A DNA stretch of 64,000 bases from an uncultured Spirochaetales bacterium (GTDB taxonomy: Bacteria; Spirochaetota; Spirochaetia; Sphaerochaetales; Sphaerochaetaceae): assembly GCA_944388965.1 (NCBI GenBank), contig CALXKL010000008.1:1-64000 (forward strand). The letters run 5' to 3'. Positions 16,191 to 30,241 of this stretch are shown here, one piece after another. The notes beneath the pieces were generated by a model. It made no database searches. It was not told where the DNA came from and saw only the letters and a list, made by a program, of their open reading frames with translations. The position numbers and the translations under genes were made by a program. Position 1 is the first letter of the stretch. Each line of letters opens with the position of its first letter.

Positions 16191-16961
16191 TTAGAAAGCG
16201 TAGGAGACGCCGACGCGCGGGGTGATGGACATCTGGAAGCCGTCCGTGAGGAACTCTCCATGCTTCACACCGTTCGCTTCTGTCGTCTGGTAGCACATGA
16301 CTGTGACGCCCAGATCGATGCCGCCGAAGACCTGGAAGCTTCCGAAGGAGTAGGAGACATCGGCGTTGGCGATGACCTCGAGGTTGTCCATCGAGATCTT
16401 TGCAAGCTCGAACTCCTTGGTTCCCATGCCGGGGATTTCAACAGTCGCCTTCATTCCGTTGCCGAATGTGTGGATGTACTGGAGACCAGCACCAAGTCTG
16501 AGGTCGAGGTTGTCTGCCAGTGCAAGCCTGTACTGGAAGGTGATTGCAGGAGCGATCTTCGTTCCGCCTGTGATGCTCTTGTAGGAAGCGGAATCGACGA
16601 TCTTATTCAGCAGTGCCATCTGCTCCGCTGGAGTGCCTCCCGGTATCATGCCAGCTCCAAGTTTAGCGGCAAGACCCATGAGAGTTTCATTCTTGAACTC
16701 GAATGTGGATCCGTAGTAGATGCCGACACCAAGCCTGGCTCCGATACCGATTGTCTCGGCCTCATCGAAATAGTATGCGCCCTCGAGGTTGATGTCCCAG
16801 TTGAAGTCTGTGACAGTTGTGGATGTAGCCATTTCCTTGATCTCATCGGTGACCTGGATCTCGAAAGCAGGTCCTGTCGTGACACCGATCCAGCTCTCGC
16901 CTGCGGCAAGGGGGCTGAGGGCGACGAGAAGGGCTACAAGTGCGAATGCAATCTTCTTCAT
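16191..16961 (-). CDS. Outer-membrane beta-barrel protein
   Basis: The 256-residue precursor has a signal peptide (MKKIAFALVALLVALSPLAAG) and then alternating amphipathic strands: GIGARLGVGIYYGS, PAITFQYRLALADNLDLRLGAGLQYI, and an ending GVSYAF with the C-terminal Phe typical of barrels assembled by BamA. It is unrelated in detail to the three large paralogues further right. No substrate can be inferred. It has its own promoter region and terminator, so it is monocistronic. Confidence 0.75.
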   Translation of the reverse strand: MKKIAFALVALLVALSPLAAGESWIGVTTGPAFEIQVTDEIKEMATSTTVTDFNWDINLEGAYYFDEAETIGIGARLGVGIYYGSTFEFKNETLMGLAAKLGAGMIPGGTPAEQMALLNKIVDSASYKSITGGTKIAPAITFQYRLALADNLDLRLGAGLQYIHTFGNGMKATVEIPGMGTKEFELAKISMDNLEVIANADVSYSFGSFQVFGGIDLGVTVMCYQTTEANGVKHGEFLTDGFQMSITPRVGVSYAF

Positions 16962-17207: not shown

Positions 17208-18570
<1,363 letters not shown>

Positions 18571-18967: not shown

Positions 18968-18996
18968 TTGACAGTTACACAAGCTGAATCTAGAAT
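18968..18996 (+). promoter_or_regulatory. Strong sigma-70 promoter of the first large outer-membrane protein gene
   Basis: TTGACA (18968-18973), exactly 17 nt, TAGAAT (18991-18996), in AT-rich surroundings 74 bp before the ATG. It is the best consensus promoter upstream of any of the three paralogues. Confidence 0.75.
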
Positions 18997-19029
18997 TGTG
19001 TACAAATTACGAATAAAAAAGGGGAAATC

Positions 19030-19047
19030 GTGATTCCTGTGAATCAC
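19030..19047 (+). promoter_or_regulatory. 5' UTR hairpin before the outer-membrane protein gene
   Basis: Perfect 7-bp arms GTGATTC / GAATCAC with a CTGT loop, 13 nt before the GGAGG ribosome site. It could stabilise the message or modulate initiation; the two other paralogues lack it. Confidence 0.5.
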
Positions 19048-19069
19048 ACCCGAATTTTATGGAGGAATT

Positions 19070-20665
19070 ATGAAAAAGACTATTGCAATTCTTCTGGTTG
19101 CAATCCTGGCTGTAAGCTCGGTCTTTGCTGCATTCAGCGGTGAGGCCAAGATCGGCTTCGGAGCAGACCTGGACAATGGCAAGTTCGGATTCATGGACAA
19201 GGGTGCGAATGTCAAGTTCGACATCGACCTTGCAACCGCAAATGCGGAGAGCGTCGGTGATGGAGACGTCTACGCATCCATCAAGGCGACCTTCGGTCTG
19301 AAGCTCACCACCGGTGAGAAGAAGTACGGCGAAGGTGATCCGTTTGGAGGTATTGTTTTCAATGACCAGCCCACTGAAGGAACAATGGGTTCTGGAAAGT
19401 ATGGCCTGGCAATCATCGCCGACATCACCGAGGCAAAGATCGGTGGCGAGAACTGGTATGTCAGCATTCTCGGTGTTCCCGATGCTCCCAACTTCGCCGA
19501 GTCCGCAATCGACACCTACACGGTCGAGGGTGCATATGACAAGTATGGTCTTGCAAGGGACGACTATGACAAGGCATACAACTACGGCGTTGCATTCGAG
19601 AAGGCTGATGGCGTAGAGGTCGGTGTCTACGACTACGTCTTCGGTGTCGGCTTCGTGAACGACTACGACGATGACGACAACTGGAAGTTCGAGGATAAGA
19701 TGGGTCTCTCCCTCTATGCAAAGACTCCCGAGTACGACTTCAGCGGCCTTACACTCCAGGCTGGTGCCGTCTACAGCTACAAGGGCAAGACTCTTGCCGA
19801 GGCTGTCGAGCCGAAGAACGCAATCGGTGTCTCTGCAAAGGTCGGCTTCGCCAACGACACTCTCAGTGCAAGCATCGCAACCGATATGGGATTCAACCTC
19901 GAGGAGAAGAAGGCAAAGGACGTCTTCGACATGGACCTTGCCGCCAACTTCGGATGGAGCTTCCTGACATTGGATGCATACTATGCAACAGAGGCCAAGA
20001 CCGCAGAGAAGTGGATTGGAACTGCTGCTGACTGGGACAAGACCGAATCGACAGTCTCTCCTGACATCCTGTCCTTCCAGGCGAAGTTCGATCTCAACAC
20101 CTTCGACGTTCCTGTTGCCATCACGGCTTCCGTCAAGGACGTCCTGAAGACCGTCGAGCTCGGAGTCAAGGCCGAGGTCACCGCTGTCGAGAACCTGAAG
20201 ATCACCGCAAACGCAGGTTATGTTGTCAACACGGTTGATGCATACGACAAGGACTTCAACAAGGAAAATAAGGATGTCTTCCTTGGCCAGTGGAAGTTCG
20301 GTGCTGATGTCGAGTATGACTTCGGCTTCGCAAAGCTTGCTGCCGGTGTCGATATGAAGAACGTTGGTTACAGCAAGGTAGATTCTGCTACACCGACGAC
20401 ATTCGACAAGCATGTCATGGACGATTACGCGAAGAAGGCAGCCGCTGGTGATTTCAAGACTTCTGCCGATGGAATAAATTACTTCGTCAACCAGGTCATC
20501 CTTGGGGCTTCTGCATCCATCACGACCTCTTCCATCATCCCTGGTGCAGAGCTCAAGCTCGCATGGGAGAACGGAGACGACCTGCTCAACATCTTCCAGT
20601 ACAATGCTGCTGATGATGTCTACAACTTCGGCAAGATCACAGCATCCTGCAAGATCGCTTTCTAA
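19070..20665 (+). CDS. Large outer-membrane protein, copy 1 of a three-gene family
   Basis: The 531-residue precursor has the signal peptide MKKTIAILLVAILAVSSVFA, an acidic mature part with many alternating strands, and a C-terminal Phe (SCKIAF), as expected for an outer-membrane barrel. It has the strong promoter at 18968, a leader hairpin and its own terminator. Copy 2 (22300) and copy 3 (26078) share a near-identical signal-peptide DNA sequence and several blocks such as GFANDTLSASIATDMGFNL and KFDLNTFDVPVAITASVKDV. Copy 1 lacks the ATDKxLNDSFKEQY insertion shared by the other two. Function is unknown; a porin or host-interaction role is inference. Confidence 0.75.
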   Translation: MKKTIAILLVAILAVSSVFAAFSGEAKIGFGADLDNGKFGFMDKGANVKFDIDLATANAESVGDGDVYASIKATFGLKLTTGEKKYGEGDPFGGIVFNDQPTEGTMGSGKYGLAIIADITEAKIGGENWYVSILGVPDAPNFAESAIDTYTVEGAYDKYGLARDDYDKAYNYGVAFEKADGVEVGVYDYVFGVGFVNDYDDDDNWKFEDKMGLSLYAKTPEYDFSGLTLQAGAVYSYKGKTLAEAVEPKNAIGVSAKVGFANDTLSASIATDMGFNLEEKKAKDVFDMDLAANFGWSFLTLDAYYATEAKTAEKWIGTAADWDKTESTVSPDILSFQAKFDLNTFDVPVAITASVKDVLKTVELGVKAEVTAVENLKITANAGYVVNTVDAYDKDFNKENKDVFLGQWKFGADVEYDFGFAKLAAGVDMKNVGYSKVDSATPTTFDKHVMDDYAKKAAAGDFKTSADGINYFVNQVILGASASITTSSIIPGAELKLAWENGDDLLNIFQYNAADDVYNFGKITASCKIAF

Positions 20666-20725
20666 GACTGAGTACATCTTGGAAAACACGGACAGCCTCT
20701 CGGGAAACCGGGAGGTTGTTTCATG
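20645..20725 (+). repeat. Inverted-repeat arm: 3' end and downstream flank of copy 1
   Basis: From the last codons of the outer-membrane gene through its terminator to TTTCATG, this 81-bp stretch matches the reverse complement of 26018-26098 with only a few mismatches. Together with the homologous coding sequences it makes copies 1 and 3 a long inverted repeat about 5.3 kb apart. Confidence 0.85.
20696..20721 (+). terminator. Terminator of outer-membrane copy 1
   Basis: CCTCTCGG - GAAA - CCGGGAGG followed by TTGTTT. The same hairpin is present in inverted orientation after copy 3. Confidence 0.75.
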
Positions 20726-20798
20726 TATAGGGAATTCGATGATTTCCTTTTTAGGAGATTGGCTCCTGTCAAGCAACCAGCCTTATACAGAATACCAT

Positions 20799-22145
20799 TC
20801 ACATCACAGAGGCCATATAGAGCGGAAGATACAGTATCCCGTCCTTTTCCTCGACATCCCGCCTGCAGAGGATGACTGGCATTCCGATATGCTTTCCATA
20901 TCTGGCTATGAACTTCGAAAGCGATGCGAAATGGACGGCTTGAGAGGATTTGGCCTCGATTGGAACGATCTTGCGCTTTTCCACGATGAGAAAGTCGATC
21001 TCCATTTCATTTGCACGGCTATGGTCCTCTCTTGCCGATGTGAAGAAGAAAAGCCTGTGTCCGTTTGTCCTCAGGGCCTGGGCGACATAGTTCTCCGTTA
21101 TCATGCCTTCGTTTATGCCAAGCCTGTCCATGAGAATCGCCTTGTAGATGTCTTCCGTCACGTCTCTTGATGCATCCAATGCATGTGTGACAAGAAGCCC
21201 CGTATCCATCATGTAGCATTTGACACGGGTATCATCAAGATTCATGTCCAGCCCGACCGTCGGTTCGGTGGCATTGAAGCACATGTTCGTGATCATGGCA
21301 TCATCAAGCCAGAAGAAAGCCTCCTCATAACCTCTGCTACGGGCGTTCTTGCCAAGGGAAGCAAGATTGAACCTCTTCTCCTTCTTGGCCAGTTCGCCAG
21401 GCAACCTGTCGAATATTGCCCGTACACGAGGAGCATTGCTCCCAGCATGCCTCGATACGTCTTCCCTGTAGAGATCCAGGATATCCCTCTTCTCGGCATC
21501 TGCCGCCTGGAAGCTGTTCCTCTCGACGTAGGCGACCACCGCCTGGGGCATTCCCCCGACAAGAAGGTACTGTCTGAACTCCTTCATGGCGGCCTGATGT
21601 ACTGCATGTCCAAGTGGAATCCTGTCTTCAAAGGCCTTGCGTATCATTGGGAAAAGCGTCCTGTTTCCTTTTGCCCAGAGGAACTCCTCGAAATCCAACG
21701 GATACATCTGAAGCTTCTTCTCCTCCGATGGCAGGACGATGTCTTCCGTATTCTTCCTTATGGACAGGAGACTTCCAGTACATATGACATCATAACGGCC
21801 GTCTTCAACCATCTGCTTCGTCAGCTGCCTTGCCTTCGGACATAGCTGGACCTCATCGAAGACGATTAGACTATCCCTCTCATATAGCTGAACGGAGTAG
21901 ATCACGGACAATGCCGAATAGAGATAGTCAAGGTCGTACGCATTCTCCTCGAACAGCTTGAAGACCTCTCCACTTGCCTGGGCGAAGTTGACGAGAAGAC
22001 ATGTCCTGTATTCCCGATTCCCGAACTCTCTGACAAGCCAGGTCTTGCCTACACGTCTGGCGCCTTCGATTAGAAGGCTCCTCGTACCATGGTACGTCTC
22101 CTTCCATTTCAAAAGTGACTGATATGCCTTTCTCTCCAGTTCCAT
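20799..22145 (-). CDS. DUF4143-type AAA ATPase, copy A
   Basis: The 448-residue protein has an AAA_14 ATPase domain with P-loop IEGARRVGKTWLVREFG near residue 30, Walker B SLIVFDEVQLCP and sensor VICTGSLLSI. It also has a C-terminal DUF4143 nuclease-like region with a DFLIV....PIEAKSS motif (EMEIDFLIVEKRKIVPIEAKSS), which resembles a PD-(D/E)xK core. Such proteins are abundant, poorly understood, and multiply in spirochaete and archaeal genomes. It is convergent with outer-membrane copy 1, whose terminator lies 78 bp away, and divergent from copy 2. A paralogue is at 24600. Confidence 0.8.
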   Translation of the reverse strand: MELERKAYQSLLKWKETYHGTRSLLIEGARRVGKTWLVREFGNREYRTCLLVNFAQASGEVFKLFEENAYDLDYLYSALSVIYSVQLYERDSLIVFDEVQLCPKARQLTKQMVEDGRYDVICTGSLLSIRKNTEDIVLPSEEKKLQMYPLDFEEFLWAKGNRTLFPMIRKAFEDRIPLGHAVHQAAMKEFRQYLLVGGMPQAVVAYVERNSFQAADAEKRDILDLYREDVSRHAGSNAPRVRAIFDRLPGELAKKEKRFNLASLGKNARSRGYEEAFFWLDDAMITNMCFNATEPTVGLDMNLDDTRVKCYMMDTGLLVTHALDASRDVTEDIYKAILMDRLGINEGMITENYVAQALRTNGHRLFFFTSAREDHSRANEMEIDFLIVEKRKIVPIEAKSSQAVHFASLSKFIARYGKHIGMPVILCRRDVEEKDGILYLPLYMASVM

Positions 22146-22299
22146 ACCATTAATTCTAAATGGTCAATGGTCTCATGCCAAGTTTTAATCAGGTTGTTTT
22201 GCACGAAAAACCAAGTTATATGTCATGTCGCTAGCACGATATGCCATATTTCGCTATGTTTCCCAACCGAACTGTCAATGGATTTCACCTAGAGGAATT

Positions 22300-24048
22300 A
22301 TGAAAAAGACTATTGCAATTCTTCTGGTTGCAATCCTGGCTGTAAGCTCGGTCTTCGCTGCATTCAGCGGAAAGGCCAGCGTCGGCTTCGGTGGTAATCT
22401 GGACAATGGCAACTTCGGTTTCATCGACCAGAGCACCAATGCGAAGATCGACCTCGAGCTCGCGACGGCCAATGCAGAGAACGTTGGGGAGGGCGACATC
22501 TACGCATCCATCAAGGCTTCTCTCGTCGTCAGACTTTACAATGGTGAGAAGGGCGCTACTCCCGACAAGCCCAATAGCCAGGATGGAAAATGGCTTCCTA
22601 TCGATGTTGCAATCGACGAGGCGAAGGTCGGTGGTGAGAACTGGTATGTGAGCATCCTCGGCATGCCCGACGGTCCCGACTATGCGAAGTCTGCAATCGA
22701 CACCTACGATGTCAAGGAGAAGAAGGACGACTATGGTTTCACGAAGGCCGACTATACTGGCAACTACAGCTTCTCCGTTCCCTATGCTGACACCAATGGA
22801 ATCGAGGTTGGACTGTTCGGATACAAGTTCGGATTCGGTCTGCTCGGCGACTACAACGAAGACAACAGCTGGAAGCTTGAAGACAATCTCAAGTTCTCTG
22901 TCTTTGCAGAGACTCCCGAGTACGACTTCGGTGGTTTGACGGTCCAAGCGGCTGCAACATACAGCTACAGCGGTTACGACAGACTTGAGAGTGGTGTTGC
23001 GCTTAAACCCGGTGCGGCAGCATCAACTATCATTGATCCTGACACAGGAAAGCCTGAGTGGTCCTATGCTGGATTCTCCAGAACGAACGCCATCGGACTT
23101 GCAGCTAAGGTCGGTTTCGCTAACGACACTCTCAGCGCAAGCATTGCAACCGATATGGGCTTCAACCTCGAAGGCGACAAGTTCGAGGATGTCTTCGACA
23201 TGGACCTCGCGGCCAACTTCGGCTGGAGCTTCTTGACATTGGATGCATACTATGCGACCACTGCAAAGTCAGGTGAAGGCGTTGTTGGAGCATACGAGTG
23301 GGATGCTACGCTTAACGATAATAAAGGTGGCTATAAGTGGAATGCCGACAAGTGGGGTAGCAAGTACACCGACGATATCCTCTCCTTCCAGGCCAAGTTC
23401 GATCTCAACACCTTCGATGTTCCCGTTGCCATCACGGCTTCCGTCAAGGACGTTCTGAAGACCGTCGAACTCGGAGTCAAGGCAGAGGTCACCGCTGTCG
23501 AGAACCTGAAGATCACTGCAAGTGCTGGCTATGTCATCGATACCATCAATGCTTACAGTAAGGCTGACTGGGCCAGAAGCAATGCAGCCAAGTATGGCCC
23601 TGAAGCAAGCGCTTATGTTGCAGCTGCTACCGACAAGCAACTTAACGATTCGTTCAAGGAGCAGTATAAGGACGTCTTCCTTGGCCAGTGGAAGGTCGGT
23701 CTCGATGCAGAGTATGACTTCGGATTTGCGAAGGTCGCTGCTGGTATCAGCGCAAAGAACGCTGGTTTCAAGGCATTCATTGCTCCTGACAAGGCTTTCG
23801 ACAAGCATGTCAACGATGATGCTGCAAAGAAGAATTTCAAGACAGACGCTGATGAGGCTAGCTTCTATGCCAACCAGGTTGTTCTTGGAGCTTCCGCATC
23901 CATCTCGACAGAGTCCATCATCCCCGGTGCAGAGCTCAAGCTCGCTTGGGAGAATGGAGACGACCTGCTCAAGGTCTTCGCCTACAACGCAGATGCTGAT
24001 GTCTACAACTACGGTAAGATCACAGCATCCTGCACAATCGAGTTCTAA
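22300..24048 (+). CDS. Large outer-membrane protein, copy 2
   Basis: The ATG at 22300 opens the signal peptide MKKTIAILLVAILAVSSVFA; a longer in-frame start at 22225 would bury it and is rejected. The 582-residue precursor ends SCTIEF. The 5' identity with the other copies begins at GAGGAATTATG, only about 10 nt before the ATG, and the upstream 150 bp have only weak promoter-like hexamers (TTGTTT..TATATG). The C-terminal half carries ATDKQLNDSFKEQYKDVFLG, nearly identical to copy 3. Its own, different terminator follows. Confidence 0.75.
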   Translation: MKKTIAILLVAILAVSSVFAAFSGKASVGFGGNLDNGNFGFIDQSTNAKIDLELATANAENVGEGDIYASIKASLVVRLYNGEKGATPDKPNSQDGKWLPIDVAIDEAKVGGENWYVSILGMPDGPDYAKSAIDTYDVKEKKDDYGFTKADYTGNYSFSVPYADTNGIEVGLFGYKFGFGLLGDYNEDNSWKLEDNLKFSVFAETPEYDFGGLTVQAAATYSYSGYDRLESGVALKPGAAASTIIDPDTGKPEWSYAGFSRTNAIGLAAKVGFANDTLSASIATDMGFNLEGDKFEDVFDMDLAANFGWSFLTLDAYYATTAKSGEGVVGAYEWDATLNDNKGGYKWNADKWGSKYTDDILSFQAKFDLNTFDVPVAITASVKDVLKTVELGVKAEVTAVENLKITASAGYVIDTINAYSKADWARSNAAKYGPEASAYVAAATDKQLNDSFKEQYKDVFLGQWKVGLDAEYDFGFAKVAAGISAKNAGFKAFIAPDKAFDKHVNDDAAKKNFKTDADEASFYANQVVLGASASISTESIIPGAELKLAWENGDDLLKVFAYNADADVYNYGKITASCTIEF

Positions 24049-24075
24049 TCTGAATCATTCAGAAATGATACTCAT

Positions 24076-24109
24076 GAGCCCTCAGAGAAATCTGGGGGTT
24101 CATTTTTTA
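24076..24109 (+). terminator. Terminator of outer-membrane copy 2
   Basis: GAGCCCTCAGA - GAAA - TCTGGGGGTTC followed by A and TTTTTT; unlike the terminator shared by copies 1 and 3. Confidence 0.85.
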
Positions 24110-24599
24110 TATTGAGCCTCTCTCGTTTTCCAGCATCTGTATTCTCCCAAAGCAGTCGAAGGCGATACTTCCAAAGTCGTAGTCTTTTATAGCTTACAGC
24201 CTTTCCGTCTGAGCTAGGGTAGCTTATTGCGTATAGACTACTTCTGACTGTCAAAACCATGTCGATGAAATGTCCGTTAACAAGGCCTCGATATGAATTG
24301 CATTGGACTTGCCGAAAAGGATGTCGAAGAAGTGTCAAGGATTGCATATCGAGGATTATCAGCTTTGTAAATTCATGTGTACGGACAAATGCAGATACCA
24401 TATCCCCTATTGGAAATGGAAGCTTTATTCTACAACTACATGTCAGGATGATTCACTTGGCTTATTTCATGTTTGAAAATAGAAAATTATACTTTACATA
24501 TTGCTGTAAAAATCTAGGATTATGCTGATTTCATTATAAAATAATTCTAGGAATAAGTTTTATTCTGATATTATTGTATTTGTGCAAAGGAGAGTGACG
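24110..24599. other. AT-rich intergenic region
   Basis: About 490 bp without a gene I can support. A 109-codon minus-strand frame (24072-24401) has no signal, motif or ribosome site and runs into the terminator. The right end is strongly AT-rich and presumably holds the promoter of the ATPase gene at 24600. Confidence 0.5.
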
Positions 24600-25949
24600 T
24601 TGAAAAGAAAGATATATGACAGACTCCTTGAGTGGAAGACATCATCCAATGGTAGAACAGCTTTGATGGTAAAAGGTGCCAGACGTGTCGGCAAGAGCTA
24701 TATCGTCAATGAGTTTGGAAGAAATGAATACACTTCATACATTCTGATAGACTTCAACAAGGAGAATGATGACTTCAGGAAAAGATTCCAGGCCCTGCGT
24801 TCCGACCTCGACTCGCTTTTCCTGTTTCTTCAGGAATACTTCAATACGCCGCTTCATGTAAGGGAATCGCTCATCATCTTCGATGAAGTCCAGAAATTCA
24901 CGATGGCGCGGGAGCTGATCAAGTACCTTGTCCAGGATGGCAGGTATGACTACATCGAGGCCGGCTCGCTCATCACGATAACCAGCAAGGCGAAGAAGAT
25001 CACGATCCCATCTGAGGAGGAATCGATCCAGCTTGATCCCATGGACTTCGAGGAATTCCTCTGGGCTCTTGGTGAGGATATGCTTTTCGAAGCAGCAAGG
25101 AGGGCGTATGAGCATTCCGTTCCAGTGGGTGAGCCGATTCATCGACGATTGATAGAAAGGTTCCGACAGTATATGGTCGTCGGAGGAATGCCTCAGGCTG
25201 TCTCGAGTTTTGCACAGGACAAGGACTTCTTTGCGGTGGAGAAGATCAAGAAGAGCATCATCAGTCTATATCGTGAAGACATTTCGAAGGCACGCAGAGG
25301 ACTCGTCGAAAAGACCAGGGCGATATACGATCTTGTTCCATCCCAGCTGAGCAGACATGAAAAGAAGTTCTCCCTTTCTGAACTGGAAAAAGGTGCAAGG
25401 AAGGACAGTTATCATGAAGCATTCCAATGGCTTGATGATGCACGGCTTGTGAACATGGCCTATAACTCCATGGATCCGAACATCGGCCTCAAGCTGACAA
25501 AGGACGAGTCCTCATTCAAATGCTATATGGCAGACACGGGTCTGCTTCTGTCGATGGTATTTGATGACAACCCGGAAATTGTTCCAGACGTGATGCGGAA
25601 GATTGCACTTGGCAAGCTTGAATTCAACAAGGGGATGCTGATCGAAAACATCGTAGCACAGATGTTGGTCGCATCGGGGAGGAAGCTTTACTTCTACTCG
25701 AGCTACAGCAGACTTGCAGAAGACCGGATGGAAGTCGATTTCCTTCTATCAAAGCCGAACCTGACCAGCAAGCACAACATCATCCCTATTGAAGTGAAAT
25801 CCTCCAACAACTATTCGCTTACATCGCTTAGGAAATACATGACCAAGTTCGAAAAATATGTCACAAATCCTCTCGTGCTGCATTTCAAGGATCTTGAGGT
25901 GAAGGAAGGTATAACTTATCTTCCAATCTACATGACATCGTTGCTGTGA
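24600..25949 (+). CDS. DUF4143-type AAA ATPase, copy B
   Basis: Paralogue of the protein at 20799-22145, same length and layout: P-loop VKGARRVGKSYIVNEFG, Walker B LIIFDEVQKF, sensor EAGSLITI, the DFEEFLWALGED segment and a C-terminal MEVDFLLS...IIPIEVKSS nuclease-like motif. A TTG at 24600 lies 8 nt after AAAGGAG and is preferred over the GTG 18 nt upstream. It converges on outer-membrane copy 3. The pair of ATPases alternates with the outer-membrane genes. Confidence 0.8.
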   Translation: MKRKIYDRLLEWKTSSNGRTALMVKGARRVGKSYIVNEFGRNEYTSYILIDFNKENDDFRKRFQALRSDLDSLFLFLQEYFNTPLHVRESLIIFDEVQKFTMARELIKYLVQDGRYDYIEAGSLITITSKAKKITIPSEEESIQLDPMDFEEFLWALGEDMLFEAARRAYEHSVPVGEPIHRRLIERFRQYMVVGGMPQAVSSFAQDKDFFAVEKIKKSIISLYREDISKARRGLVEKTRAIYDLVPSQLSRHEKKFSLSELEKGARKDSYHEAFQWLDDARLVNMAYNSMDPNIGLKLTKDESSFKCYMADTGLLLSMVFDDNPEIVPDVMRKIALGKLEFNKGMLIENIVAQMLVASGRKLYFYSSYSRLAEDRMEVDFLLSKPNLTSKHNIIPIEVKSSNNYSLTSLRKYMTKFEKYVTNPLVLHFKDLEVKEGITYLPIYMTSLL

Positions 25950-26017
25950 TAGTCTTCCTATAGGTGCCATAGAATCACATCCAGCCAGGAAGCACGACAA
26001 CCTTGATGACGCCATAT

Positions 26018-26098
26018 CATGAGACAACCTCCCGGTTTCCCGAGAGGTTGTCCGTGTTTTCCAAGATGTAGTCAGTCTTAGAAAGCGATCTTGCAGGA
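26018..26098 (-). repeat. Inverted-repeat arm: 3' end and downstream flank of copy 3
   Basis: Reverse complement of 20645-20725 with a few mismatches, extending about 60 bp beyond the stop codon through the terminator to CATG at 26018-26021. Non-coding identity past the stop argues for duplication or inversion rather than protein-level constraint. Confidence 0.85.
26021..26052 (-). terminator. Terminator of outer-membrane copy 3
   Basis: Same hairpin as after copy 1 in inverted orientation (CCTCTCGG-GAAA-CCGGGAGG on the minus strand). Confidence 0.75.
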
Positions 26099-27763
26099 TG
26101 CGGTGATCTTGCCGAAGTTGTACTTCTCTGCAGCAGAATTGTACTGGTAGACGTTGAGGACATCATCTGCATTCTCCCAAGCAAGCTTGAGCTCTGCACC
26201 GGGGATGATGGACTCTGTGGAAATCGAAGCGGAGAGACCAAGAAGAACCTGGTTGACAAAGTGGTTGATTGCATCAGCACCAGTCTTGCCCTCGCCATCC
26301 TTTTCAACACGAGGATCAAGCTTTTCAGCATCAGCAAATGTTGCCTTGAAGCCAAGGTTCTTTGCGCTGATACCGGCAGCGACCTTCGCGAATCCGAAGT
26401 CGTACTCTGCATCGAGACCGACCTTCCACTGGCCAAGGAAGACGTCCTTATACTGCTCCTTGAACGAATCGTTAAGTTCCTTGTCGGTAGCAGTCTCGGA
26501 AATCACATCAGAGTTTGCTCTCATCCAGTCAGCCTTGCTGTATGCGTCAACCGTATCAACAACATAGCCTGCGCTTGCAGTGATCTTCAGGTTCTCGACA
26601 GCTGTGACCTCTGCCTTGACTCCAAGCTCGACGGTGTGCATGACGTCCTTGACGGAAGCCGTGATGGCGACGGGAACATCGAAGGTGTTGAGATCGAACT
26701 TCGCCTGGAAGGACAGGACGTTCTCCTTGTAGCTGGAGGAAGTCTTGTCGAAATCACCGTCAACAGGAGTCGGAGTCTCGCCGCTCTTCACATATGTGCC
26801 ATAGTATCCATCAACAGTCAGGAAGCTCCATCCGAAGTTGGCAGCGATATCCATGTCGAAGACGTCCTTGGCCTTCTTCTCTGCAAGATTGAAGCCCATA
26901 TCGGTTGCGACACTTGCGCTGAGAGTGTCGTTTGCAAAACCGACCTTGGCGGAAACACCGATTGCATTCCTTGCCTTGTCCGGATCGGTAGCGTACGGTT
27001 TGGCAACTCCCTTGTCGAGCTTATCGAATGCACTGTAGCTGTAGACAGCACCAACCTGGAAAGTCAGGCCGTTGAAGTCATACTCAGGAGTCTCTGCGAA
27101 TACAGAGAGCTTGAGGTTATCCTCGAGCTTCCAGTTGTCGTCATCGTTGTAGTCGCCAAGAAGACCGAAACCGACCTTGTAGTCATAGACGCTGACCTCG
27201 ACACCAGGAGCCTTTTCGAAGCCGACACCATAGTTGTACGCCTTGTCGAAGTCATCTCTGGCCATGCCGTACTTGTCATAGCCGTCCTCGACCGTGTAGG
27301 TGTCGATCGCAGACTCTGCATAGTTGGGAGCATCGGCGATGCCGAGGAGGCTCACATACCAGTTCTCGCCACCGACCTTGGCCTCTGTGATGTCCGCGAT
27401 GATGTAGTTCGCGAATGTTCCATACATGACACCTGTAACAGGATTAGCAACAGTTCCAATGTTTGCGCCGCCATTGTAGATGCCACCGTACGGGTCTCCT
27501 TCGCCGTACTTCTTCTCTCCAGTGGAGAGCTTCAGGGCGAAAGTCGCCTTGATGGACGCATAGACATCTCCTTCTCCAACGCTCTCTGCATCTGCTGTAG
27601 CAAGCTCGAGATCGAACTTCACATCAGCAGACTTGTCGATGAAGCCGAAATTGCCATTGTCCAGGTTTCCACCAAAGCCGAGCTTTGCCTCACCGCTGAA
27701 CGCAGCAAAGACCGAGCTTACAGCCAGGATTGCAACCAGAAGAATTGCAATAGTCTTTTTCAT
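26078..27763 (-). CDS. Large outer-membrane protein, copy 3 (mosaic)
   Basis: The 561-residue precursor has the same signal peptide and ends SCKIAF. Its N-terminal half follows copy 1 (KKYGEGDP, YTVEDGYDKYGMARDDFDKAYNYG) while residues from about 400 follow copy 2 (AYSKADW, ATDKELNDSFKEQY, KVGLDAEYDFGFAKVAAGISAKN). It then returns to copy 1 at the 3' end and flank. That pattern is a recombination mosaic. The region upstream of 27763 has no good promoter hexamers. Confidence 0.75.
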   Translation of the reverse strand: MKKTIAILLVAILAVSSVFAAFSGEAKLGFGGNLDNGNFGFIDKSADVKFDLELATADAESVGEGDVYASIKATFALKLSTGEKKYGEGDPYGGIYNGGANIGTVANPVTGVMYGTFANYIIADITEAKVGGENWYVSLLGIADAPNYAESAIDTYTVEDGYDKYGMARDDFDKAYNYGVGFEKAPGVEVSVYDYKVGFGLLGDYNDDDNWKLEDNLKLSVFAETPEYDFNGLTFQVGAVYSYSAFDKLDKGVAKPYATDPDKARNAIGVSAKVGFANDTLSASVATDMGFNLAEKKAKDVFDMDIAANFGWSFLTVDGYYGTYVKSGETPTPVDGDFDKTSSSYKENVLSFQAKFDLNTFDVPVAITASVKDVMHTVELGVKAEVTAVENLKITASAGYVVDTVDAYSKADWMRANSDVISETATDKELNDSFKEQYKDVFLGQWKVGLDAEYDFGFAKVAAGISAKNLGFKATFADAEKLDPRVEKDGEGKTGADAINHFVNQVLLGLSASISTESIIPGAELKLAWENADDVLNVYQYNSAAEKYNFGKITASCKIAF

Positions 27764-28253
27764 AATTCCTCTGTGCAGAGTCAGTAGCGACTATGAAGCA
27801 GAAGAGCCCGTAAGGCATGAAGAGGGGTAGTCATATTCCAGGCTGGAAAATGACAAGGTGATAAAAGTTCTGGAATGGATACCATGAAAATATTGGAATA
27901 GGCTGTGCTGGGAGGGCGGTAAAGGAAAAAGTACGCATATCGAAGAAAAGATGGAGTCTTCGAGGTGCCTATCACCATGCTTGCACTATGGCGTTCCTGT
28001 GTAGCGCATCCTTGCTCATGGATGCATCCTGGCCACTGGCCCTGTGAGCCTTGGCTTCCTGGGCCTCGACATCATTCAAGCCGCTCCTGCCTGATTGCCC
28101 AATATCTTCTGATGCTTCAACGGCATCCTGATCCTTTTTTGCCGTGTGAGAGAATATCCGGTACGCAAAGGCTCACAGGCAGGGCTTTGTGTGTATCATC
28201 GTCTGTCCTTGCTTCTGTCCTGTCGCCTTCCTGCGTGGAAAGAGGAGAGAAAC
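27764..28253. other. Intergenic region between outer-membrane copy 3 and the integrase
   Basis: About 490 bp. GAGGAATT directly before the copy 3 ATG is shared with the other paralogues; further out the similarity is lost. I see no gene, no clear promoter for copy 3 and no recognisable attachment site. Confidence 0.5.
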
Positions 28254-29558
28254 ATGGCCAAGAGAAAGGCGTTCTATCTGTACAAGAGGAAGAAGAAGCA
28301 TGGAGCCTACTGGTATGTGTGCTACATCAATCCCGACACGGGAGCCCAGGAGACGGCCAAGAGCATAGACGTGCTCAAGGAGCGGCTGGACATGGGCTGC
28401 GGCTTCAGTGTGAAGGACCGCGACAGCGCAGCGATCATCGCAGGCAAGGCATTGGAGGCGGGGCTTGTCTTCTCGAGCGCCTCCTCGATGTCGTTCAACT
28501 CCTACTGCAAGGCTTTCTGGGAGTACGAGACCAGCGAGTACGTCGCGCTCCGCAACAGGCTCAAGCCCGATTCCATCGGGCGCGAATACTGCATGAACAT
28601 GCTGGGCAACTACCGCAATCATGTGGAACCGGTCATCCCGGCCCACACCCGTCTTGGATCCGTCACCGTCGACATGCTGGACCGCGTGGTGAGCCATGCG
28701 CTCTCATGCGGCATGGCCTCGGGCTCCGTGCAGATGATAGTCCTCTCGTTCTCGATACCGCTCAAGGAGGCCGTGCGAAAGCGCATGATAAAGTCCAATC
28801 CCGCGTCCTGCCTGATGAGGATCCCCCGTAGCGAGAGGGAACGTGGAATAATGCGCCATGACGAGGTCGTCCGCCTGATGGAGCGTGTCGATGCCCGACC
28901 CGGCGACAGGATAGCCATGGCCGTGAAGCTTTCGCTCACGACCGGTATGAGGAGCGGGGAGGTGAGGGCGCTGTCCGTACGCGAGATCTTCCTGTGCGAC
29001 GCGGTCCGAGACGACGGGGTCGCCATGGCCCGTATCGTCATAGAGCATTCCCTTGCCCCGTACAGCGGCATCAAGTGCCCGAAGAACCACAGGAGCCGCG
29101 AGCTGTACATCGACGACGAGTTCGCACGCACCCTGGTCTCGTCGGCATCATGTGACGGTGTGGTGTTCCCGGGTACCCGGAGCACCTACATGAGCTCTGT
29201 CGAGCTCCGGCTGGGATTCTATGCCCTGCTTGCAGACATCGGTATAGACGAGAAGGAGAGGGCGGAGCGCAATCTGACGTTCCATAGTCTGAGGCACATG
29301 TTCAACACGATGCTGCATGACGCCGAGCTTGGAGCAGGGGAGAGGATGCTGGCCCTTGGCCATTCGTCAAGGAAGGTCAACGAGCGCTATGTCCATGACA
29401 GCGAGAGACGTCTGATGAAGGTGTCTCTCGTGAGCAGCCGTATTCTGCACCTCGCAAGGCCGGGTGCAGAGAAGAGTGCAGAGGAATTTCAGTACTTCCT
29501 GCCGTCCGAGAAGACCAGTGCGGATGACAGCCTATCCAGGTACAGGGAGCAGTCGTAG
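28254..29558 (+). CDS. Tyrosine recombinase/integrase
   Basis: The 434-residue protein has a basic N-terminus (MAKRKAFYLYKRKKKHGAYW), a SAM-like core-binding region at about 80-190 and a catalytic domain with the first Arg in TTGMRSGEVRALS, the HxLR box in FHSLRHMFNTML and the final His and Tyr in ALGHSSRKVNERYVH. So the R-H-R-H-Y set appears complete. ATG at 28254 follows GAGGAG. Its last 70 bp overlap the 3' end of nagB on the other strand. No tRNA target lies next to it, so it may act on a local site or be a domesticated relic. Confidence 0.85.
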   Translation: MAKRKAFYLYKRKKKHGAYWYVCYINPDTGAQETAKSIDVLKERLDMGCGFSVKDRDSAAIIAGKALEAGLVFSSASSMSFNSYCKAFWEYETSEYVALRNRLKPDSIGREYCMNMLGNYRNHVEPVIPAHTRLGSVTVDMLDRVVSHALSCGMASGSVQMIVLSFSIPLKEAVRKRMIKSNPASCLMRIPRSERERGIMRHDEVVRLMERVDARPGDRIAMAVKLSLTTGMRSGEVRALSVREIFLCDAVRDDGVAMARIVIEHSLAPYSGIKCPKNHRSRELYIDDEFARTLVSSASCDGVVFPGTRSTYMSSVELRLGFYALLADIGIDEKERAERNLTFHSLRHMFNTMLHDAELGAGERMLALGHSSRKVNERYVHDSERRLMKVSLVSSRILHLARPGAEKSAEEFQYFLPSEKTSADDSLSRYREQS

Positions 29559-30241
29559 GCCATTCTCAGCGCAGAGGAGGGCGAGAGCACGCTCACGTCG
29601 TCGAAGAGGCATCCGGCGACCGCCTTGGCCTTTCTCTGGTCGGGACAGGAGACGATGATGTGGCGTGCGCTCATGATCTCGCTGACGGACATCGTTATGG
29701 CCTTGGTCGGCACGTCGTCGAGGTTGCCGAACCAGCCCTCGCTGACCTGCTGGCGCCGGGAGCGCTTCTCCAGGTCGACGACGATGTACGGATCCCTGGT
29801 GTCGAAGTCGGCAGGAGGATCGTTGAATGCCAGATGCCCGTTCTCGCCGATGCAGATGAAGGCGACGTCGAGGCGGTGGTTCTTCATGAGTGCGTTCAGG
29901 TCCTTCACCGTCTTTTCGAGCTTCGCCTTGCTCGTGTCTATCGGGGTGTAGCTCTTCACCTTGCCGATATGGCCAAGGAGGAATTCGCCCAGGAAGTAGC
30001 GGGATGTGGAGAGGGAGTCCGCGGGAAGGCCCACGAACTCGTCCAGGTGGAACACGTTCACGCATTCCCACTTCACGTTCTGCCTTGCCAGCTGCAGAAG
30101 CGTCTCCACCTGGCTCTTTCCGGTGACGAAGACGACGTTGGCCTCTCCGCGCTCCTCGATGGCCTGGGCTATGTACGAGGCCCCCTCCTGTGCCGCGAGA
30201 CGGCCGAGCTCCTTTCTGGTGTCGCAGATCGTGACTCTCAT
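29489..30241 (-). CDS. nagB: Glucosamine-6-phosphate deaminase-like protein
   Basis: Deaminates and isomerises glucosamine-6-phosphate to fructose-6-phosphate plus ammonia. The 250-residue protein shows VFVTGKSQVETL, VFHLDEFVGL, FICIGENGHLAFNDPP (catalytic region), TKAITMSVSEIM and a terminal HIIVSCPDQRKAKAV. The C-terminal 23 residues are coded antisense to the integrase end and differ from typical NagB endings. It lies downstream of hpf but after a terminator, so it is probably a separate unit. Confidence 0.85.
   Translation of the reverse strand: MRVTICDTRKELGRLAAQEGASYIAQAIEERGEANVVFVTGKSQVETLLQLARQNVKWECVNVFHLDEFVGLPADSLSTSRYFLGEFLLGHIGKVKSYTPIDTSKAKLEKTVKDLNALMKNHRLDVAFICIGENGHLAFNDPPADFDTRDPYIVVDLEKRSRRQQVSEGWFGNLDDVPTKAITMSVSEIMSARHIIVSCPDQRKAKAVAGCLFDDVSVLSPSSALRMAYDCSLYLDRLSSALVFSDGRKY

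Follow-up and report, generated by a model that had tools for sequence, protein, structure and literature searches.

Three neighbouring genes for outer-membrane proteins have almost the same DNA at their start and differ along most of the remaining length, which raises the question of how such an arrangement arose and what it serves. The first-pass annotation of the window, i.e., the whole stretch of 64,000 nucleotides analysed here, had taken the three genes for a mosaic made by repeated gene conversion and had compared them to antigenic-variation loci. The latter resemblance is well supported. The locus is very probably a surface-porin switching system, in which one promoter serves interchangeable porin genes through inversion of DNA at a short block. 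The sole promoter with its leader, the identity of the block, the anatomy of the silent slots, the maintenance of a tyrosine recombinase in the locus and, from one species to another, both inversion and exchange at the block, all read from the sequence, point to this reading.

Organization of the porin locus

The locus lies between enolase and a gene which we take to be nagB-like (Table 1). The three outer-membrane paralogues proposed earlier were confirmed as full-length ORFs with 57-67% amino-acid identity (tblastn), and no further porin copies were found elsewhere in the genome searched. A signal peptide is present in all three related porin-like proteins. For copy 2, a longer ORF is listed that begins at an upstream ATG (22225). 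Structure prediction folded copy 1 into a beta-barrel (mean pLDDT 67.5, moderate confidence only), and the top fold matches of this predicted structure were porins of the maltoporin, MOMP and OprD types and other outer-membrane barrels. The Pfam search of the porin copies and the PDB sequence search with the porins gave no match, and the one match in NCBIfam, of copy 3 to the TDE1717-family outer-membrane beta-barrels, was weak and partial and lay far under the cut-off. The genomes of the same genus include Bullifex porci and Candidatus Aphodenecus pullistercoris, and Bullifex is placed in Spirochaetia.

Table 1. Features of the porin locus and their positions in the window.
Feature	Position	Strand	Remark
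Enolase	17242..18570	+	Conserved left border of the locus
Promoter TTGACA-N17-TAGAAT of the predicted expression slot	18968..18996	+	11/12 positions match, more than at any other site of the region
Conserved 5' leader with hairpin	19017..19069	+	Expression slot only
Identical 5' block, copy 1 (-8 to +56)	19062..19125	+	Putative recombination region; homology between copies begins here
Porin-like beta-barrel gene, copy 1	19070..20665	+	Predicted expression slot; full ORF; modelled as a beta-barrel, with porins among its fold matches
Candidate core site ATTGCAA-N9-TTGCAAT, copy 1	19082..19104	+	
3' flank, copy 1, containing the hairpin CCTCTCGGGAAACCGGGAGG	20666..20725	+	Common to copy 3
AAA_14/DUF4143 ATPase	20799..22145	-	Between copies 1 and 2
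Identical 5' block, copy 2	22292..22355	+	
Porin-like gene, copy 2	22300..24048	+	Promoterless slot; full ORF; no promoter-like site upstream in copy 2 direction
Candidate core site ATTGCAA-N9-TTGCAAT, copy 2	22312..22334	+	
Putative conversion tract, copy 2	23624..23784	+	Common to copy 3; 93% identity over 161 nt
Terminator-like hairpin after copy 2	24074..24103	+	
AAA_14/DUF4143 ATPase	24582..25949	+	Between copies 2 and 3
3' flank of copy 3	26018..26077	-	Common to copy 1
Porin-like gene, copy 3	26078..27763	-	Inverted promoterless slot; full ORF; no promoter-like site upstream in copy 3 direction
Putative conversion tract, copy 3	26333..26493	-	Common to copy 2; 93% identity over 161 nt
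Identical 5' block, copy 3	27708..27771	-	Opposite orientation
Candidate core site ATTGCAA-N9-TTGCAAT, copy 3	27729..27751	-	
Tyrosine recombinase (Phage_integrase, Pfam)	28254..29558	+	Between copy 3 and nagB; likely catalyst
nagB-like gene (presumed)	29489..30241	-	Conserved right border of the locus

In several species and genera, AAA_14/DUF4143 ATPase genes like the two in the window occur again inside the porin cluster or next to it. On the other side of the locus, next to enolase (16191-16961, minus strand), lies a separate gene for a protein of 256 aa that is secreted or outer-membrane-like, and the genome G002 has a counterpart of it.

A single promoter and leader

The promoter, an upstream TGTAAC element and the leader were conserved at the enolase-proximal copy in 13 genomes of the genus, in each of which the leader preceded exactly one porin copy and was absent at the other copies examined. 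No promoter-like site was found just upstream of copy 2 or copy 3 in its own direction. The leader hairpin is closed by GGG/CCC, its pairing is kept through two-sided changes across genera, and it may stabilise or regulate the porin mRNA. A similar leader stands ahead of the porin in other genera of the family. Several of those genera have a single porin near enolase and no recombinase homologue was found beside it, which suggests that the locus derived from a single-copy ancestor.

The promoterless copies are intact ORFs, each with a 3' hairpin of its own, and have dN/dS of 0.23-0.27, and these silent genes are therefore probably in use.

The identical 5' block and its candidate core site

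The near identity of the signal-peptide DNA beside diverged parts, as noted in the first-pass annotation, proved to be sharper than described: the three copies are identical from -8 to +56, a block which contains the ribosome site and the first signal-peptide codons, and their upstream flanks are unrelated. Among the codons for the same amino acid, 20/21 were identical in the signal peptide between copy 1 and copies 2 and 3, as compared to 216/312 and 247/355 outside it (p about 0.01). Eight further genomes of the genus each have their own version of the block, which is common to all copies of that genome. Paralogues of one genome had an identity of 0.93-0.98 in the first 40 nt of the gene; it was 0.24-0.35 in the DNA immediately before the block and had dropped to 0.5-0.6 at +70. 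The block identity between genomes was lower (about 0.75-0.94), which indicates that the block evolves in concert within each genome and that protein constraint alone does not hold it constant. The exact block was also searched for in viral contigs and none was found.

The block of most genomes of the genus contains a 7-bp inverted repeat with a 9-bp spacer at +13 to +35 of the gene. Only four perfect matches to ATTGCAA-N9-TTGCAAT occur in the genome, three of them at this locus. In Bullifex porci and two relatives the two arms have changed as a pair, and the repeat is broken in G014. This repeat is a candidate only for the recombination core site, because its chance probability given the encoded peptide is about 0.03.

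In G014, a second porin copy (L040:2632-3966) has neither the ribosome-site block nor a start codon, and no recombinase homologue was found in that genome; perhaps the locus was frozen after loss of the system.

Rearrangements between species

Every rearrangement that we saw came from a comparison between species, none from within a strain, which counts against the switching reading. The clearest was found in two species of a sister genus (G104 and G108), whose flanks are colinear and in which the 3.9 kb between both porin starts are inverted. The alignment ends no more than 14 bp from the start codons, and an internal EamA gene is flipped as well. G001 and G012 share a flank that is 94.7% identical and have the same porin gene (97.7%) in different slots. 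In G001 this gene follows the leader, and in G012 it follows a promoterless flank which in G001 lies ahead of another gene. The switch from agreement of the flanks to agreement of the genes maps inside the identical block. Part of the interior is also inverted. The difference between the two genomes needs several steps, and copying could be among them. On the tree of the gene bodies we counted 9 changes of occupant in the expression slot, as compared to 9.1 for shuffled labels, so that the slot is uncoupled from the gene lineage.

In G002 and G008, contigs stop within or just after the block (end of L048, starts of L049 and L050), and two different flanks in G002 both lead into the same gene start. 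Both are expected for repeated copies or for arrangements mixed in the population.

Proposed mechanism and the role of the tyrosine recombinase

In the mechanism that we propose, the single promoter and leader beside enolase would transcribe whichever porin gene sits behind them, which is copy 1 in this assembly. Recombination between oppositely oriented blocks (copy 1 and copy 3, or copy 2 and copy 3) would invert the DNA between them and could place another porin gene behind the promoter. Because the ribosome site and the first part of the signal peptide lie in the block, the gene brought in would be in frame, with its ribosome site intact, and could be translated. The likely catalyst would be the neighbouring tyrosine recombinase, perhaps acting on the candidate core, and ordinary homologous recombination would contribute occasional conversion tracts inside the genes, such as that of copies 2 and 3. 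We infer that the switching takes place within a population, and its benefit may be that cells escape antibodies or phages or alter their permeability.

The recombinase keeps the R..HxxR..H..Y catalytic residues and has a dN/dS of 0.14 between the window and G002, which indicates that it is maintained by selection, and the exchange at the block is probably its work. A homologue is found beside nagB in seven genomes of the genus (the window and six others), and in the same position in several genomes of a sister genus. Against recombinase-driven switching we counted G003 and G009, where the gene is disrupted, G001 and G012, where it was not found and the loci run off contig ends, and G104, itself half of the inverted pair, where no homologue was found. 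The placement of a recombinase beside nagB in G001 and G012 was considered and rejected, as nagB lies elsewhere in these two genomes and no homologue was found beside it. We also counted against it G022, from another genus, which has four identical blocks and in which no recombinase homologue was found.

The cluster of G022 (L054 and L055) has four porin copies, one of them with the leader, and its identical block differs from that of the window. An IS110-type transposase nearby was considered as an alternative invertase; Piv of Moraxella is related to IS110-type transposases.

General homologous recombination (RecA) across the identical blocks of 43-64 bp, the mechanism proposed for relapsing-fever Borrelia, could also give the same expression-site switching, and the tyrosine recombinase would then be a bystander. 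The arms of the block fit this as well, since within a genome the blocks are homogenised from end to end, as expected of gene conversion. This explanation is further favoured by the tract of copies 2 and 3, where homologous exchange did happen, and by G022, which has identical blocks and in which no recombinase homologue was found. But purifying selection has kept the recombinase next to the locus in two genera, and where it was not found and the locus is resolved (G014 and G104), the blocks are lost or differ, so that we regard RecA-driven switching as possible and rather unlikely. We lean towards a dedicated tyrosine recombinase acting on a site within the signal-peptide codons, in which case the porin shuffle, with its shared promoter, would have grown out of a lone porin gene flanked by enolase and nagB and would now be present in at least two or three genera of the family.

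It is improbable that the locus is an old tandem family which does not switch at present, its block being held by selection on the signal peptide and on translation and its order changed by occasional rearrangement over evolutionary time. Signal peptides are constrained, and the rearrangements were seen only between species. Nevertheless, the block identity covers synonymous sites and is specific to each genome, the slot occupancy is random on the tree, and promoterless copies that were never expressed would decay, yet they are intact at the dN/dS given above.

Gene conversion within the genes

Conversion inside the genes was found once. Copy 3 does follow copy 2 around ATDKxLNDSFKEQY, as had been noticed (Table 1), and 42/47 of the codons for the same amino acid are identical in this segment, as compared to 186/293 elsewhere (p=3e-4, the segment being picked after the fact). 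With G005_b as an outgroup, 14/18 informative sites joined the two copies (permutation p=0.004), and a scan of synonymous codons gave p=0.005; the segment is best read as a conversion tract. The likeness of copies 1 and 3 at the 3' flank, also pointed out before, holds over about 60 nt and may be ancestral. The proposal that copy 3 follows copy 1 in the N-terminal half did not hold: three-sequence tests gave clustered site patterns, with an N-terminal signal between copies 1 and 3 that was significant over all sites, but the switch of the tree was lost with the outgroup, copy 2 being merely more diverged there. A conversion between copies 1 and 3 in this half was rejected, with p=0.70 at third codon positions and overall site patterns of 44/45/42 with the outgroup. 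Of the repeated gene conversion claimed at first, the one tract of copies 2 and 3 remains, and the main signal, which is the 5' block, is best read as the exchange point of inversions. Gene conversion thus appears to be a smaller part of the history of this locus than rearrangement at the block.

Repeated intragenic conversion among three independently expressed paralogues, as the first reading had it, can point to that tract and is the least probable of the explanations, since copies 2 and 3 have no promoter-like site upstream in their direction, the identity ends at the ribosome site, whole genes swap slots and whole segments invert between species, and the N-terminal switch fails with the outgroup.

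Significance and comparison with known systems

If switching by inversion at the block is real, gut spirochaetes have a programmed change of their surface, with a bearing on phage resistance, immune recognition and nutrient uptake. We know of no DNA-inversion porin switch in spirochaetes. A limited search of the open-access literature found none, which is not proof of absence, and found nothing relevant on surface variation in Sphaerochaeta or Bullifex. The cultured relative Bullifex porci carries the locus, which makes the proposal directly testable. The block is also a place where assemblies made from short reads of these genomes can be broken or wrongly joined.

The closest likeness in organisation is to vpma/Xer1 of Mycoplasma agalactiae, which has one promoter, genes in both orientations, a conserved 5' sequence that takes in the signal-peptide region, intact silent genes which inversion activates and a tyrosine recombinase in the locus (PMC2268961). 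Features of this kind, which liken the locus also to vsp of M. bovis, were found here in the sequence: a single expression site, intact promoterless paralogues, a shared 5' sequence as the putative site of recombination, a tyrosine recombinase in the locus and, between species, an inversion that ends at the block (G104 and G108, with G001 and G012 as supporting cases). The vpma genes encode lipoproteins of a wall-less bacterium, whereas the genes here encode predicted outer-membrane beta-barrels, and recombination in vpma takes place in the untranslated region (-1 to -72), whereas the shared block here extends from the ribosome site into coding DNA. This likeness is one of organisation and says nothing on common descent. 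In vsa/HvsR of Mycoplasma pulmonis, a single expression site and promoterless silent genes are likewise joined by site-specific inversion; the moving part there consists of the promoter plus 714 nucleotides at the start of the coding sequence, whereas only about 50 nt of coding sequence are shared here.

Among spirochaetes, vmp of Borrelia hermsii has one promoter, a silent promoterless archive and a short 5' homology element (UHS/DHS system) overlapping the gene start (PMC6011951). Our locus resembles it in these respects, but vmp works by non-reciprocal copying on plasmids, in contrast to the reciprocal chromosomal inversion seen between G104 and G108 and the recombinase in the locus; copying may nevertheless have had a part in the difference between G001 and G012. 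In tprK of Treponema pallidum, an outer-membrane protein is varied at a single expression site (PMC4534519), as proposed here, by segmental conversion from small partial donors; no partial donor cassettes were found in the window, where all copies are full-length ORFs. The invertible outer-membrane SusC/SusD loci of Bacteroides fragilis, with their site-specific invertase (cited in PMC11868660), offer a likeness at the level of that citing description: a gut bacterium whose outer-membrane proteins are switched by a site-specific invertase, in another protein family and another phylum.
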